Source of the DNA: Pontiellaceae bacterium B1224
Lineage (GTDB): Bacteria > Verrucomicrobiota > Kiritimatiellia > Kiritimatiellales > Pontiellaceae
Direction of reading: 5' to 3'
NCBI GenBank assembly: GCA_029432815.1
Contig: JAROBA010000043.1
Coordinates: 1-44,077, forward strand
Length of the DNA: 44,077 nt
In this document: positions 11,333 to 17,635 of the stretch, one piece after another
How the letters are laid out: the number at the start of each line of letters is the position of its first letter
Position numbering within the stretch: position 1 is the stretch's first letter
The notes under the pieces: model-generated
What the model was told of the DNA's origin: nothing
The model's database searches: none
The model's input: the letters and a program-made list of their open reading frames with translations, nothing else
Program-made: the position numbers and the translations under genes

Positions 11333-12739
11333 CTAATCCAGAATCACTTCCTGTTCATAGTCCGGAACCACACAGTGCCAGCCGGTCTTTTCGGTCAGGA
11401 ATTCCTTAAAGGCATTCGCCTGGTCTTCTTCACCGTGCGTAACGAAAACCCGACGTGGCGGCTGCTTGAGGGAGGAGATCCATTTGAACAGCTCATTGCG
11501 GTCCGCATGCGCCGAGAAACCGGAGATCCGTTCGATGCGGGCTCTAACCGGATACTCCTCGCCGAAGATTCGTACGGTTTCGGGCTTTTCCAGAATCCGG
11601 CGACCCAGCGTCCCGAAGGCCTGATAGCCAACAAACAGAATGGTACTCTCCGGACGATCGATATTGGCTTTCAGATGGTGCTTAACGCGGCCTCCCGTGC
11701 ACATGCCGGATCCCGCAATGATGATCGAAGTTCCTTTGGCCTTGGCAATCCCTTTCGATTCATCCACCGACCGCGTCATGCTTAGGCCCGGGAAGTCGCA
11801 CGGTTTATCGCCGGCCCTCACCTGCTCCATGGTCTCGTCATCGAAGAGTTCCGGATGCTTCTTAAATACTTCGGTGACCTTAATGGCCATCGGGCTGTCA
11901 ACAAATGCCTTCAGCATGGGGATACGGTCTTCACTGAGCAGGCCGCTCAAGTGATAAAGCAGCTCCTGCGTCCGTTCGAGTGCAAAACTCGGAATAATAA
12001 TATTTCCACCGGCTTCCACGGTTTCATTAATAATACGTTCGAGTTCGCCGGGTATGTCGGCCACTTCGCCATGGATGCGGTCGCCATAGGTGGATTCAAT
12101 CAGAACATAGTCGGCCTGTTCATACTGATGCGGATCGCGCATAATCGGCAAATCCCACCGTCCGACATCGCCGGAGAAAAGAATGGTGCGCGTTTCATCG
12201 CCCTGCGTCACCGAAATACGAATCGAAGAGGAGCCGAACACGTGACCGGCTTCGCGAAATTCGGCGGTAATCCCGGCTCCAATTTCCACCTTGGAATTAT
12301 AACTCGTCTTCTCAAACAAACTGTTGGCCTTTTCGGCATCTTCTTTTACATAGAGCGGTTCATAAGGAAACGGACTTTTCTTTCCGGCTTTTTCATGACG
12401 CCGTTGCTTATGCTTGATGTCCTCTTCCTGAATATGCGCGGAATCGAGCATGATAATATTGGCAATCTCCGCCGTAGCCGAGGTTGCATAAATCTTTCCA
12501 CTGAACCCCTCCTTCACCAACTTCGGCAAACGGCCGCAATGATCCAGGTGGGCATGCGTCAGCAGCACGGCATCAATTGTATTTGCGGGAACAGGGAAGT
12601 CGGCCCAGTTGCGCGGCTTGAGATCGCGTTCCTGATAAAGCCCGCAATCCACCAACAGACGAACGCCATTGGCTTCCAGAAAATAGCAGGAACCGGTTAC
12701 GTTTTTTGCTGCGCCGAAAAAATTAAGTTTAATTTCCAT
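11333..12739 (-). CDS. Beta-CASP metallo-beta-lactamase fold protein (RNA nuclease-like)
   Basis: The 468-residue protein belongs to the beta-CASP group of the metallo-beta-lactamase fold, whose members (CPSF73/YSH1-like, YhfI/RNase J relatives) mostly cut RNA. The zinc motif HxHxDH is His62, His64, Asp66, His67 (THAHLDHCG). Further ligands are in EAGHVFGSSS (near 172) and Asp in FSGDVG (near 197). The beta-CASP part (about 210-400) contains the DSPMA and GSGMCTGGR stretches, and the C-terminal zinc His lies in GFSAHADR (near 415). The length fits the bacterial family of about 450-470 residues. AAGGAGC stands 8 bases before the ATG at 12739. Substrate is unknown. Confidence 0.93.
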   Translation of the reverse strand: MEIKLNFFGAAKNVTGSCYFLEANGVRLLVDCGLYQERDLKPRNWADFPVPANTIDAVLLTHAHLDHCGRLPKLVKEGFSGKIYATSATAEIANIIMLDSAHIQEEDIKHKQRRHEKAGKKSPFPYEPLYVKEDAEKANSLFEKTSYNSKVEIGAGITAEFREAGHVFGSSSIRISVTQGDETRTILFSGDVGRWDLPIMRDPHQYEQADYVLIESTYGDRIHGEVADIPGELERIINETVEAGGNIIIPSFALERTQELLYHLSGLLSEDRIPMLKAFVDSPMAIKVTEVFKKHPELFDDETMEQVRAGDKPCDFPGLSMTRSVDESKGIAKAKGTSIIIAGSGMCTGGRVKHHLKANIDRPESTILFVGYQAFGTLGRRILEKPETVRIFGEEYPVRARIERISGFSAHADRNELFKWISSLKQPPRRVFVTHGEEDQANAFKEFLTEKTGWHCVVPDYEQEVILD

Positions 12740-12852: not shown

Positions 12853-15800
12853 CTACTCTACGTCACCCCGGTCCACTGCTTCGGTACGGCAGACCGACAT
12901 ATAGTCAGTATACGTTTCAATTAAAGGATCAACAGCGAAATCGGCATTTTTCAGCTTATCCAGATTTGAGAACAACGTGGCCATAAATCCGGCCGTCAGA
13001 TTCGGCTCATCCATCGCCACCAGACTCTTTTTCAACGAGCTTCCAATCCTTGGAAAATCACGCTCGTAGAACAGATATCCGGCATCGGTCCTGACATTGA
13101 CCGCTTCGTTATTAAACGTCTCGAAGAAATACTGCTGTGCCGCGAACGCATAGACCGGAAGCTGGCAGTCGAGATTTCGAATAATCTCTTCCACATATTC
13201 CTCGGTCTTGCTGCGCGAACGCGACGAACCTTTATAGTCCAGCACCCGCACCTTTGCCAGATCGCCGGTGTCGGCAAAAATAAGATCCACGCGATCAATC
13301 ACGCCATGCAGCTTCACCTGCTCAAGATCGACTGCGGTTTCTCCGCCGAACTTTAATTCGAACAACGCCGGATATCTTTTTTCCGCCGCACAGGTTTCGG
13401 CATCGTAGCGAACAAAGTTCAGCACCATCTCCAGAATCTTTTCACGCTCCGCCGCCCAGACGCCCGGGTGGCCCAGCGCCGCGCTATTCAACCGCCGGTT
13501 GGCAATCCTGCGCGCAAAGGCTTCGTATTCACTTCCAAACTCTGGAACAAATGTAGCCAACGGAATAGCCTCGACACCCTCCTCCGTGCGGAGCTTCCAA
13601 CCATTGGAACTTTTTACCGCCCAGTAGCGCGGGGCATCAATGCCGCTGTGCCCAAGAGCAATCGCAGTATAGATTTCATGGAGGATGGAATGGATTAAAC
13701 CGCCGCGCTCCATCGGGTCCGGTGTATCATCCGCGACGCGCGGATCGCGAATACCAAAGATGCGTTCGATCAGAAAAATATAACGACACTGCGCCAGCGC
13801 CTCCAGCGCGGTCGGGCTCATTTCTTCCTTCTCTTCAAACCAGACGGCAATTTTTTCTTTCAACGCCGGAACGTGGCCGCAATAAATCGAAGGCTCGCGT
13901 TCGTCGATTGGTGTATCCAGATAAGCCTCCCGCTCCGCTTCGATTTTGAGCATTTTAATTAGATGAACCACCGGATGAGCAGATTGGAAAGTCTGCTCCA
14001 CATGTGGGGTAGATTTTCTGGTCTGTCCCCCCTTCACAGCAGCCTGCAGGGCTTCATCTTTTGCGCGGCAGAGCGGCAACGGAATAATCGGAAGAAACGA
14101 TTCGCCCGGCATTGGAAGCCGATCTTCTGGAGCCGTGCTTTGCTGCGACTTCCAATGATTGGAAAAAATGGAATCGGTTTCCAAGGTCTGGATGCGCCAT
14201 TGATCGTATGGACTCAACTGCATCTCTTCCTGCGCGCACCATCCGGCCAGGTTCCAGAGCTTGCGGTAAAATTCGCCCTCGCCCTTATCATTGCCTTCCT
14301 GATCGACCGACTGATAGGAAAAGACCAGTTGCTCGCGTGCCATACCGAGTGCCGTTAAAAAGAGCACCGACTCCTGTTCAAATAAAACATCTGCTTCCGG
14401 CAAAGCCATTTTCGGCAAATGCCTGCCCTGCTCTTCCAGATGAAGCTTCAGAAAGTGGCGCTCATGATCGCTAAGCAGCGCATCCTGCTGCGGGACGCCC
14501 GGGAATGCCCCCTCGTTCAGACCGGCAAACAGAACGACATCAAAATCCAGGCCCACGGCATCGTGCGGATTTAAGATCCAGACGCCCTGCTCATGACTTT
14601 CGCGAGGCCGGACCGTTTCATTTTCCAACAGCTCTTCGAGCAGGTCAATCAGATCACTGAGCGGTAACGAATGATTCCCGATTTGCTCGAGCACCGTTGC
14701 GACCACTTTTAATGCTGCATCATTAAAATGATCCTCCGGCTTAACGATCCGTTCCGTCAGGATTTCCAATGCCTGGAAACCTGATAAATCGGATGCATCC
14801 GCTTCGAGGCGCGGCGGTTGTTTCATTAAGCGTTCAATCTCCTGTTCACGGTGTTCGAACCGGATGGCCGGATTTCGGACAAGGTCAATCAACGTGTCGC
14901 GCTCTGGACGCAGCGGAAAGGCGAGCCACGCAAAAAAAGCCTTCACGCAGGGGGAAGACAGAACGGGACGACCGCGCCGGAAAAAATAGGGAATTTGGAA
15001 ACGGGAAAAGACGTGTGGAATAATGTCCTGCACATTTCCAATGTTTGGAACAATCAGCGCAACCCGGTTAGCCGAAACATTCAGCGTCTGAAGATTCCAG
15101 CAAATGCGACGCGCCAGATCTTCAATCTCGCCATAAGCCCCGGCAGAGCGGGAAAAGTTAATGCGGTTTACATCTGAAAGCTGCAGCACATCGGCGCTGT
15201 CGACCGCCAATGCATCGCCGAGGTCTTCGGCCCAGACGGCCCAGGGTTTGTCCATTATTTCCGAGCGGATCTGCTGGCCCATCCGGTCGGCGGACACTTC
15301 AGCATGCGCCTGCGGCAATGCCGATTCCACCCGGACCTTCAGCTTTTTATTCAGTGCGGAAACGCATCGTTCTTCAAACGGATTAAACCAACGCACGGAA
15401 CGAAAGGTAACACGACTGCAGTCGCGCAGCTGCGGGGGCCATTGGTCGCGCGGGCCATTCAGCAGTTTGAGCAGAGCCGTATTTACATCAATAGCATCCG
15501 CGAATCCATCCTGCTTAATCGTGGCCCGCCAAACACTGAACAGCATGCCGAGCTGATACAGTTTATGCTTTCGATGATGGTCGAGCAGCCAGTCGACCAC
15601 ACGGGCCGTTTCTCCGGGCAGAGAAGCCAATTCAGTGATGAGCTGATCCAGCACATCGGCCAGCGCATTGGGAGAGAGTTCGCCCAGCGCCCCTTCTCCA
15701 TGAAAATGTCCCATAGCCACTTCCACCACTTGTCGGCGAATAAGCAGCTGTTGCGCGGCATTCATTCGTAGCCCTTTAACGGAAGCATACGTCAGGCACA

Positions 15801-15939
15801 GCTTCCGAAGCCGGGGGAACGTGGTATGTCCGGAAGCATCGACCCAGCCGTGCTTCAGCGCTTCTTCCTGCTGAAAACGCCGCAGCGCCAGCTCGGTCGG
15901 AAAGACAATCAACTCGTGCTGGGCTCTGGTTTCAGACAT
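12853..15939 (-). CDS. AddB/RecB-family exonuclease-like protein (PD-(D/E)XK nuclease)
   Basis: The 1028-residue protein has an AddB/RexB-like layout: a helicase-like fold in the first 700 residues and a PD-(D/E)XK nuclease at the end. Nuclease motifs are SPTALEAL-AQCRYIF (near 710), the His in RGGLIHSILHE (near 748), Asp in GVIDRVDLIF (near 885), LDYKG with the catalytic Asp-x-Lys (near 900), and QLPVYAFAA (near 925). It begins at the strand after the usual Walker A loop, so ATP binding is probably lost. AddB's iron-sulfur Cys set is incomplete: the upstream Cys is present, but only one Cys lies in the C-terminal tail. No addA is adjacent. It overlaps the aminotransferase stop by one base. 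The gene carries four exact palindromes and at least two near copies. DNA repair is the likely role; its partner is unknown. Confidence 0.85.
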   Translation of the reverse strand: MSETRAQHELIVFPTELALRRFQQEEALKHGWVDASGHTTFPRLRKLCLTYASVKGLRMNAAQQLLIRRQVVEVAMGHFHGEGALGELSPNALADVLDQLITELASLPGETARVVDWLLDHHRKHKLYQLGMLFSVWRATIKQDGFADAIDVNTALLKLLNGPRDQWPPQLRDCSRVTFRSVRWFNPFEERCVSALNKKLKVRVESALPQAHAEVSADRMGQQIRSEIMDKPWAVWAEDLGDALAVDSADVLQLSDVNRINFSRSAGAYGEIEDLARRICWNLQTLNVSANRVALIVPNIGNVQDIIPHVFSRFQIPYFFRRGRPVLSSPCVKAFFAWLAFPLRPERDTLIDLVRNPAIRFEHREQEIERLMKQPPRLEADASDLSGFQALEILTERIVKPEDHFNDAALKVVATVLEQIGNHSLPLSDLIDLLEELLENETVRPRESHEQGVWILNPHDAVGLDFDVVLFAGLNEGAFPGVPQQDALLSDHERHFLKLHLEEQGRHLPKMALPEADVLFEQESVLFLTALGMAREQLVFSYQSVDQEGNDKGEGEFYRKLWNLAGWCAQEEMQLSPYDQWRIQTLETDSIFSNHWKSQQSTAPEDRLPMPGESFLPIIPLPLCRAKDEALQAAVKGGQTRKSTPHVEQTFQSAHPVVHLIKMLKIEAEREAYLDTPIDEREPSIYCGHVPALKEKIAVWFEEKEEMSPTALEALAQCRYIFLIERIFGIRDPRVADDTPDPMERGGLIHSILHEIYTAIALGHSGIDAPRYWAVKSSNGWKLRTEEGVEAIPLATFVPEFGSEYEAFARRIANRRLNSAALGHPGVWAAEREKILEMVLNFVRYDAETCAAEKRYPALFELKFGGETAVDLEQVKLHGVIDRVDLIFADTGDLAKVRVLDYKGSSRSRSKTEEYVEEIIRNLDCQLPVYAFAAQQYFFETFNNEAVNVRTDAGYLFYERDFPRIGSSLKKSLVAMDEPNLTAGFMATLFSNLDKLKNADFAVDPLIETYTDYMSVCRTEAVDRGDVE
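13041..13055. repeat. TTCCAA-N3-TTGGAA palindrome inside the nuclease gene
   Basis: Exact copy with spacer TCC, read in frame near the 3' end of the AddB-like gene. Confidence 0.85.
13595..13609. repeat. TTCCAA-N3-TTGGAA palindrome inside the nuclease gene
   Basis: Exact copy with spacer CCA, read as Ser-Asn-Gly-Trp-Lys. A one-mismatch copy lies 62 bases away (13533-13547). Confidence 0.85.
14150..14164. repeat. TTCCAA-N3-TTGGAA palindrome inside the nuclease gene
   Basis: Exact copy with spacer TGA, read as Ser-Asn-His-Trp-Lys, the same reading frame as the copy at 13595. A one-mismatch copy lies at 14764-14778. Confidence 0.85.
15036..15050. repeat. TTCCAA-N3-TTGGAA palindrome inside the nuclease gene
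   Basis: Exact copy with spacer TGT, read as Pro-Asn-Ile-Gly-Asn. Confidence 0.85.
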
Positions 15940-17114
15940 TAGAGTGTTTCGATGAAGCGGGCGATACGAACCATGGCCTCTTTAATATCGTCGAACGAGG
16001 TGGCGTAGGAGCAACGAATAAAGCCTTCGCCACATTTGCCGAAAGCCGTACCGGGCACGCAGGCCACGTTCTCTTCGTCGAGCAGTTTGAGCGCAAATTC
16101 TTTTGCCGTCATGCCAAATTTGGAAATGTCGGCAAAGGCATAGAATGCCCCTTCCGGACGAATGCTGGGTATGCCCATTTCCTCGAAAGAAGCATGAATA
16201 TAGTTACGCCGTTTTTTGTATTCGGCTTTCATGTAGGCTATATCAGTATCGGCCTGTTTAAGCGCTTCCAGCGAAGCTTCCTGACTGAGAATAGGCGCAC
16301 AGAGCATTGTGTACTGATGAATCTTCATCATGGCTTCGGTCAGTTCGGGCGGAGCACAGGTGAAGCCCATGCGCCAGCCGGTCATAGCCCAGGCTTTGGA
16401 AAAGCCGTGCAGATAAATGGTCCGTTCCCGCATACCGGGCACAGAAATAATACTGAAATGTTCCTGATCGTAGGTCAACTCGTCGTAGATCTCGTCGGTC
16501 AGCACGATTAAATCGTGCTCAATCGCAAAGGCGGCGATATCCTCCACATCCTCTTTCGACAGGATGGCGCCGGTCGGATTATTCGGATAGTTCAGCAACA
16601 GCACCTTGGTCTTGTCGGAAATATTTTCCTCCAGATCCTGCCGGGTTAAACGGAAGCCGTTTTCCTTTTTCGTCTGGATTGCAACCGGAACGCCGTAGGC
16701 AAACTGGATCAGCGGATTATAGGAAACATAACTCGGCTCATGATAGAGCACTTCATCACCGGGCTCAACAAGCGCACGGATGGCCAGATCCAGCCCTTCT
16801 GAAACGCCGACCGTGACCAGCACTTCATCTTCCGGCCGGTACTGAATGTTCGTTTTCTTTGCGACATATTGAGATATTCCACGACGCAGCGAGAGCAACC
16901 CCATGTTGGAGGTATAACTCGTCATACCGCGATCCAGAGCCAATGACGCCGCCTCGCGAATATGCCAGGGCGTAACAAAGTCGGGCTCACCGATCCCCAG
17001 CGAGATAACCCCTTCGCGTGAACTGACGATTTCAAAAAAGTCGCGTATTCCGGAACGGGGAATATCGCGAACGGTTTTTGCAATCTTACTATGGAGAGAC
17101 TTTGAGTCGTTCAT
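15939..17114 (-). CDS. Class I/II PLP-dependent aminotransferase
   Basis: A cytosolic pyridoxal-phosphate enzyme that moves an amino group between an amino acid and a 2-oxo acid. The 391-residue protein has the family signatures: GIGEPDF (near 40), NYPNNPTG (near 175), TDEIYDELTY (near 206), the PLP Lys in HGFSKAWAMTGWRMG (near 235), and the Arg in FIRCSYA near the end that binds the substrate carboxylate. It resembles the AspC/PatA-like group; the exact substrate (aspartate, alanine or aromatic) cannot be told. Its start lies inside the end of the upstream Lrp-type regulator gene, and its stop TAA overlaps the nuclease start, so all three are one operon. Confidence 0.93.
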   Translation of the reverse strand: MNDSKSLHSKIAKTVRDIPRSGIRDFFEIVSSREGVISLGIGEPDFVTPWHIREAASLALDRGMTSYTSNMGLLSLRRGISQYVAKKTNIQYRPEDEVLVTVGVSEGLDLAIRALVEPGDEVLYHEPSYVSYNPLIQFAYGVPVAIQTKKENGFRLTRQDLEENISDKTKVLLLNYPNNPTGAILSKEDVEDIAAFAIEHDLIVLTDEIYDELTYDQEHFSIISVPGMRERTIYLHGFSKAWAMTGWRMGFTCAPPELTEAMMKIHQYTMLCAPILSQEASLEALKQADTDIAYMKAEYKKRRNYIHASFEEMGIPSIRPEGAFYAFADISKFGMTAKEFALKLLDEENVACVPGTAFGKCGEGFIRCSYATSFDDIKEAMVRIARFIETL

Positions 17115-17568
17115 CGTCGTCCCCCGTGTGCATCACAATGCCGTTTTGTTTATAGGTCTTCATCATGAAATGAGTTGCCGTTGAGGTTACACCGGGCATG
17201 ATGGAAAGTTTATCGCTCACAAAACTGAACGACTCGTGCATGGTGCGTCCTTTAATAAACAGGAGCAGATCGAAACCGCCGGACATGAGGAAGACCGAAT
17301 CCACTTCCGGGAAGCGGCTGATGCGATCCGCAATACGGTCGAACCCCCCTTCACTTTCGGGTGTCACTTTAACTTCAATGACCGTTGTGACCAGCGAGGA
17401 ATCGAGTTTCTCTTCGTTCACCACGGCCTGGTAAGCACGAATGACTCCGGATTTTTCAAATTCAGTAATCTGCTGTTTCACATCCTCTGCGGAAGTTCCC
17501 AACATTTTGGCCAGGTTTTCCGGCGATTCGAGTGCATTCTGTTTGAGCAGGTTCAGCAGTTCATTCAT
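17089..17568 (-). CDS. Lrp/AsnC-family transcriptional regulator
   Basis: The 159-residue protein has an N-terminal helix-turn-helix (about 5-50, NLAKMLGTSAEDVKQQI) and a C-terminal RAM/AsnC ligand domain (about 65-140) with the conserved Gly-Gly-Phe-Asp-Leu turn. Family members bind amino acids and tune amino-acid genes. The start at 17568 has GAGGAG 8 bases upstream and gives a full helix-turn-helix; the longer frame has no ribosome site. It overlaps the aminotransferase start by 26 bases, so it probably controls that gene and its own operon in response to an amino acid. Confidence 0.9.
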   Translation of the reverse strand: MNELLNLLKQNALESPENLAKMLGTSAEDVKQQITEFEKSGVIRAYQAVVNEEKLDSSLVTTVIEVKVTPESEGGFDRIADRISRFPEVDSVFLMSGGFDLLLFIKGRTMHESFSFVSDKLSIMPGVTSTATHFMMKTYKQNGIVMHTGDDDERLKVSP

Positions 17569-17635
17569 GGCTTGCTCCTCATTAGGTTGATTAAAAAGTT
17601 TTAAGATATTACCGTCTTGACCGCGCACGACCAAA

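Follow-up and report, generated by a model that had tools for sequence, protein, structure and literature searches.

An AddB-like protein without the ATP loop and with two of the four cluster cysteines in Pontiellaceae bacterium B1224, and a palindrome repeated in its gene

On the reverse strand of the 44,077-nucleotide stretch of Pontiellaceae bacterium B1224 analysed here (contig JAROBA010000043.1; the whole stretch is hereafter the window), there is a gene for a protein of 1028 amino acids that resembles AddB, and four exact copies of a 15-base pair (bp) palindrome, TTCCAANNNTTGGAA, lie within this gene. The gene and the relevant parts of its product are located as follows.

12853..15939, reverse strand: addB-like gene, 1028 amino acids (open reading frame; domain, profile and fold matches)
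14110..15939, reverse strand: inactive UvrD-like helicase domain, approximately residues 1-610, starting immediately after the Walker A position
12925..13821, reverse strand: PD-(D/E)XK nuclease domain, residues 707-1005 (Pfam and alignments)
13786..13788, reverse strand: C718, at the place of the first cluster cysteine, Asn in several relatives (alignment)
12889..12891, reverse strand: C1017, the sole C-terminal cysteine, where the outgroups have three (alignment)

Both Pfam and the structural model divide the protein into a UvrD-like helicase fold followed by a PD-(D/E)XK domain. Pfam detects UvrD_C at residues 415-542 (E 6.2e-7) and PDDEXK_1 at residues 707-1005 (E 5.7e-23), and the best Protein Data Bank (PDB) match of the sequence profile is AddB (3u44_B, E 2.7e-16). 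When the AlphaFold model built with 32 aligned sequences (mean predicted local distance difference test score 82.7, predicted template modelling score 0.57) was compared with known structures, five chains of Bacillus subtilis AddB came first, both in Foldseek (E 1.9e-26 to 5.4e-25) and in VIA-align, with Z of 22.6-23.0 across 831-839 residues (model 2-1012) and a root mean square deviation of 14.6-14.8, measured across the whole multidomain chain; UvrD (2is4_A) could be aligned across model residues 3-601. Six residues, H750, D882, D901, K903, Q926 and Y930, are invariant in all 15 rows of alignment A1 and all 32 rows of alignment A2, from which loci L126, L127, L129, L130, L131 and L133 are absent (L and G numbers are our labels for loci and genomes).

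The pairing of the model with B. subtilis AddB begins at residue 27-28 of the latter (35 in 4cej_B), model residue 3 being matched with residue 27 of 4cei_B; the Walker A loop of B. subtilis AddB lies before this point. The ATG overlaps the stop codon of the preceding aminotransferase gene as TAATG, and the open frame upstream of it adds only 14 codons (1042 compared with 1028), so that this extension does not encode a hidden ATP loop; neither this extension nor the model pairing revealed a Walker A loop in the window protein. In the available text of PMC4824097, helicase-like domains of this kind are described as lacking most or all helicase motifs, and because of this, we do not treat the Walker A loop as a strict hallmark of AddB. 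The iron-sulfur staple is incomplete as well. Four cysteines form it in AddB and Cas4, with zinc reported instead in a related nuclease (available text of PMC3466216); the window protein retains two of the four, C1017 and, as a second candidate ligand, C718, which is located before the nuclease domain. A preliminary description of this DNA had thus been accurate about the protein itself: it portrayed an AddB-like protein, as the fold, profile and domain matches now indicate, with a start beyond the usual ATP loop, intact PD-(D/E)XK residues and a single C-terminal cysteine in place of three, and the structure prediction it had proposed returned B. subtilis AddB chains as the best matches.

The same description had presented the gene as an orphan without addA and had suggested a genome search for the partner. 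This reading falls because the search detected an apparent addA gene elsewhere in the genome. The source genome (G000; 5,377,058 bases in 204 contigs, 96.7% complete) contains two UvrD-helicase matches, an open reading frame of 687 amino acids and one of 1067 codons, located on a contig other than that of addB (G000:C144:28117-31284). The latter contains a Walker A loop (NASAGTGKT) and a C-terminal DYK nuclease motif and, judged by its sequence, is read as addA, which would be absent from the addB contig only.

We compared 58 genomes, among them 28 of the same genus (g1) and 14 of a sister group (f2). A profile search of the genome contigs with alignment A1 as the query yielded 37 loci, and a contig search with the single window protein as the query found no relatives; the closest named AddB relatives are those of Pontiellaceae bacteria B12227 and B12219. 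An AddB match was present in 40 of the 58 genomes. The AddA query matched all 58, many of the hits being plain UvrD helicases, and a clear AddA was judged from score and length. Within the genus, AddB was found in 24 of the 28 genomes, clear AddA in 26 and both in 23, some as fragments at contig ends; in the sister group, both genes were detected in 14 of 14 genomes, with only a partial AddA in G035 and G036. According to the available text of PMC1193525, AddA and AddB are found together in most genomes.

The distance between the two genes varies. They are on separate contigs in the source genome, about 383 kb apart in the single-contig genome G024, near positions 7 kb and 2.28 Mb of the single-contig genome G032, and on one contig, about 28 kb apart, in G042. 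In the outgroups, addB lies directly upstream of addA at 11 of the 12 distinct loci for an AddB with three C-terminal cysteines (L131, L132, L134-L139, G104, G060 and G179; L138/L083, L137/L174 and L136/L145 are pairs of labels for the same DNA, each counted once). Given the fold match, the conserved nuclease residues, the presence of addA in the genome and its adjacency to addB in the outgroups, the gene very probably encodes the AddB of an AddAB-type helicase-nuclease, with addA elsewhere in the chromosome. Several observations weigh against this assignment. The best NCBIfam models are those of AddB, yet the score for TIGR02773 is 64.4 bits, compared with the equivalog cut-off of 903.7. In five of the 28 genus genomes, at least one of the two genes is without a clear match, namely, addA in G005, addB in G009, G013 and G014 (the last being 94% complete), and both in G017. 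The three-cysteine AddB of G158 has no addA within the 19 kb examined. In G024, addA (G024:C1:2489769-2492867) is split across frames and contains an internal TGA, which may represent a frameshift, a pseudogene or a sequencing error.

We consider it improbable that the protein has been freed from AddA and acts on single-stranded ends as a stand-alone nuclease resembling Cas4 or the nuclease of Dna2. Its separation from addA and the coupling to an operon for an aminotransferase and an Lrp regulator would fit such a role, as would the resemblance of the nuclease domain to the Cas4-family ACE1 and to Dna2 (Z ~12), but the helicase-like half alignable with UvrD has been kept, addA co-occurs with the gene in most of the genus and throughout the sister group, and the iron-sulfur cysteine set that Cas4 and Dna2 carry, as given in abstracts and in the available text of PMC3466216, has been lost. 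The Cas4 family is also treated in PMC5704561.

The relatives allow the losses in AddB to be ordered. Genus relatives in which the start is covered share its starting position ('ELIVFPTELALRR...', with variants), and a single cysteine ('S-I/V/L-C-R') closes most of these proteins. In L117, there is no cysteine at the aligned C-terminal position, its cysteine being located further upstream, and in the deepest genus rows, L021, L022, L024 and L025, even the last C-terminal cysteine is gone. The outgroup AddBs have a three-cysteine tail at all 12 distinct loci, and no GKT or GKS was found within their N-terminal 400 residues (12 loci; L131, with its start cut, could not be judged). In the tree of 34 proteins, a branch (93/93; 90% of the bootstrap trees) separates 11 three-cysteine rows from the rest. 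The AddB of G104, which has no ATP loop, a full cysteine set and an adjacent addA, clusters with the cluster-poor rows (100/97). Midpoint rooting was used for drawing only, three rows are long-branched, the truncated L112 and L113 were excluded, and the N-terminus of L155 was crudely trimmed; the direction of change comes from parsimony and from the cysteine set of canonical AddB. Because the outgroups are loop-less yet have three cysteines and an adjacent addA, the simplest order, inferred by parsimony, is that the ATP loop was lost first, and the cluster cysteines and the addBA operon later. This order is a relative one. Outgroups in which the loop alone has gone could be used to study the function of the staple and the means by which a cluster-poor AddB remains stable.

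AddB-like proteins that lack the cluster probably occur outside this clade too because the weakly matching open reading frames from other genomes of the phylum (E 1.2e-9 to 4.5e-7) mostly have no such motif: the C-x2-C...C pattern is missing from 10 of the 11 usable ones (L157-L167, L159 being the exception; L168 and L169 were dropped, the former being a helicase and the latter a wrong-strand reading frame). In G056, an addA-like gene comes after an AddB-like open reading frame of 954 amino acids with neither the loop nor the cysteine set, and at the weakly matching locus of G053, the AddA queries gave no match within the region examined.

The genes next to addB, all on the reverse strand, are the following.

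15939..17114, reverse strand: class I/II aminotransferase, its stop codon overlapping the addB start
17089..17634, reverse strand: Lrp/AsnC-type regulator, overlapping the aminotransferase gene
11333..12739, reverse strand: metallo-beta-lactamase/beta-CASP/RMMBL protein, downstream of addB and a frequent neighbour in the genus

The overlaps and the Pfam matches bear out the operon with the aminotransferase and the Lrp regulator. Among 17 genus-type loci (L103-L117, L130 and L133), the aminotransferase gene is upstream of addB in 16 (the contig of L109 begins too close to judge), the Lrp gene precedes it in 15 of 16 (the exception being L113), and the metallo-beta-lactamase gene follows addB in 10 of the 12 loci where the sequence continues for 1.3 kb or more past addB. 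It is missing after addB in the deep rows L116 and L117 and, within 1.5 kb, in L014. None of these neighbours was found beside addB in the sister-group loci examined. Next to addA, a glycosyltransferase gene is present at all eight genus loci examined, and ksgA-like and pdxA-like genes, named by inspection of the sequence, at five of the eight. Elsewhere in the window, positions 1-2300 contain repeat units of ~1.09 kb, two of which contain flagellin genes (Pfam).

The palindrome is found 12 times in exact form in the window, and 26 sites match it with at most two mismatches, compared with 3.07 expected from shuffles. Those in the addB-like gene, with no strand assigned, are listed here.

13041..13055: exact TTCCAANNNTTGGAA, present in no other row of the codon-column comparison
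13595..13609: exact TTCCAANNNTTGGAA, codon column 1053, common to the sister-group row L029
14150..14164: exact TTCCAANNNTTGGAA, same codons in L004, L005, L013 and L016
15036..15050: exact TTCCAANNNTTGGAA, covering the V-P-N-I-G codons and present at these codons in L005, L006, L008, L010, L014 and L016 as well
13533..13547: near palindrome, one mismatch
14764..14778: near palindrome, one mismatch
14179: near palindrome, two mismatches

This site list agrees with the preliminary description, which had counted four exact and at least two near copies and singled out the gene as the densest spot of the window. The four copies compare with 0.68 expected (Poisson 0.005). In 400 kb of the source genome, 88 of 3400 sliding 3087-bp intervals (2.6%) contain at least four exact copies, and four copies in 3 kb are unexceptional genome-wide. 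Two columns are shared within the genus, the palindrome being present in 7 of the 21 and 5 of the 22 genus rows that could be aligned, the window included. At the former (column 482), V-P-N is found in 19 of 21 rows, and several other rows differ through synonymous changes only. The idea, also raised at the outset, that the palindromes match conserved residues is borne out in part, this site lying over the conserved V-P-N, and recurrence at the same codons in relatives was found for three of the four columns (two in the genus and one in L029), the site at 13041 being the exception. L029, like some other sister-group rows, has additional palindromes of its own; in this comparison, row L023 carries no meaning (a wrong-strand reading frame, not AddB) and L024 is partial. 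Insertion of a mobile palindrome was rejected given the gap-free alignment of full-length genus rows at three of the four sites; 13595 is uninformative because the alignment gap there is common to nearly all rows, and the check covers four sites in one gene. The copies appear to have been substituted, not inserted, and belong only incidentally to this gene, as part of a set spread across the genome.

This set comprises 1177 exact copies in the source genome, compared with none of the reversed pattern. The 15-bp site consists of 12 fixed bases around a free 3-base centre; a 444-kb sample contains 127 copies with a spacer of 3 and none with spacers of 0-2 or 4-8. The flanks are near background except for position -1, where T is common (46%) and A scarce (7%), and the commonest tolerated change is A to G adjoining the centre (73 compared with 127 exact copies). 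Of the sampled copies, 79 are inside genes, as predicted with a codon score rather than a standard caller, 46 between genes and 2 at edges; because 46 of the 127 are intergenic at a coding fraction of ~0.855, the palindrome is about three times denser between genes. Sense-strand variants that keep or break the G-U pair number 30 and 28, respectively, and 4 and 14 at the neighbouring position. An RNA hairpin was therefore rejected, pair-keeping variants being no commoner beside the centre and rarer at the neighbouring position, and a site at the DNA level is favoured because sense-strand wobble variants are not.

Across the 58 genomes, the copy number ranges from 0 to 1339 and does not track the presence of AddB: G003 has both AddB and AddA with 3 palindromes, G018 likewise with 4, and G049, G052 and G057 have 75-111 palindromes without a match to the window AddB. 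With 3-6 copies, the palindrome is near absent from G003, G013, G014 and G018, all of the window's genus. A replacement palindrome in such poor genomes was rejected, as sites of the TTCCAA type were not enriched in the samples from G003 (120 kb) and G018 (52 kb); the 19-kb sample of G014 says little. A second palindrome, CAGGCGNNNCGCCTG, is the commonest of the 6+3+6 type in G003 (9 copies in 120 kb, L177-L182) and occurs 6 times in the 444-kb sample of the source genome. In G057, G048 and G032, copies are spaced 30-32 bp apart, and arrays with a 31/32-bp period are found in related families (L102:6273-6476; L194 near 2199; L196 near 13824). Close pairs in the window's genome show no single spacing.

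Perhaps the palindrome is a DNA site of the HIP (highly iterated palindrome) kind. We tentatively suggest, with somewhat less than even confidence, that it is the double-stranded binding site of a chromosome-wide protein, present in hundreds to more than 1000 copies in some genomes of this class and near absent from relatives in the same genus, accommodated within coding sequence through the choice of bases and, in other families, arranged in intergenic arrays with a period of ~31/32 bp (three helical turns). The contrast between abundance and near absence within one genus would ease the search for the putative binding protein. That the copies in addB serve AddAB itself, as a Chi-like signal or in autoregulation of addB, is very unlikely. 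The 21 genus copies of addB do contain 14 exact sites compared with 2.99 expected from per-genome density, but 12 of the 14 are at two shared codon columns, which implies few events, and palindrome number is uncoupled from AddB in the genomes named above; furthermore, the Chi sites known so far are directional and not palindromic. It is hardly credible that the gene is a decaying AddB remnant heading to a pseudogene, for although the ATP loop and most of the cluster cysteines are gone, relatives across the main part of the genus have long stop-free frames with 62-78% identity, the catalytic residues are invariant in every aligned row, and the neighbours are common to relatives.

If, as we favour, the protein is AddB, AddA would be the ATP-driven motor and supply one nuclease, and the two proteins are predicted to form an active complex. 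In AddB, the N-terminal half is a dead helicase fold and would need no ATP loop; by analogy with B. subtilis AddB and RecC, it might track single-stranded DNA and read a Chi-type signal. The C-terminal PD-(D/E)XK domain would degrade the 5' strand, leaving a 3' tail for RecA, and ordinary protein packing presumably substitutes for the staple, which seems to have decayed to two of its four cysteines.

Among known systems, the closest is B. subtilis AddB (PDB 3u4q/4cei), with which the window protein shares the fold across model residues 2-1012, a dead UvrD-like half joined to a nuclease; unlike it, the window protein begins after the ATP loop and has two of the four cluster cysteines. As for the AddB of AddAB, an addA is apparently present in the genome, but the gene does not lie next to it and scores far under the NCBIfam cut-off. 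RecC of RecBCD has a comparable dead helicase fold (RecC chains, Z 14.0-16.6); its nuclease-like domain is inactivated (available text of PMC1185551), whereas the window protein keeps the nuclease residues. No account of an AddB that lacks the ATP loop or the cluster was found among the literature matches listed, in the text available, and one may exist; the cluster-poor, loop-less variant with a separate addA is new in detail and ordinary in kind. The palindrome is more novel than the addB-like gene itself: no account of its type was found among the literature matches listed, in the text available, although it may still be published, and the main text of two papers on Pontiella species (PMC10880615 and PMC7356697), as available, has no mention of palindromes. 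Like the repetitive extragenic palindrome (REP) elements of the GTAG/CGTC families, reported in the Planctomycetes-Verrucomicrobia-Chlamydiae superphylum in the available text of PMC3733652, TTCCAANNNTTGGAA is a high-copy palindrome. REPs are, in the text available, extragenic repeats of 20-40 bp; TTCCAANNNTTGGAA is 15 bp long, mostly genic and without conserved flanks beyond T at -1, and an identity with REPs was rejected on location, length and the GTAG/CGTC tag. TTCCAA and TTGGAA are absent from the main text of that paper, as available. The palindrome also resembles the cyanobacterial HIP1 (GCGATCGC), which occurs in very many copies and is nearly absent from some relatives (available text of PMC4390886). 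Unlike HIP1, TTCCAANNNTTGGAA combines 12 fixed bases with a free 3-base centre and is denser between genes, but like HIP1, it is highly repeated, extends into coding sequence and is nearly absent in some relatives.

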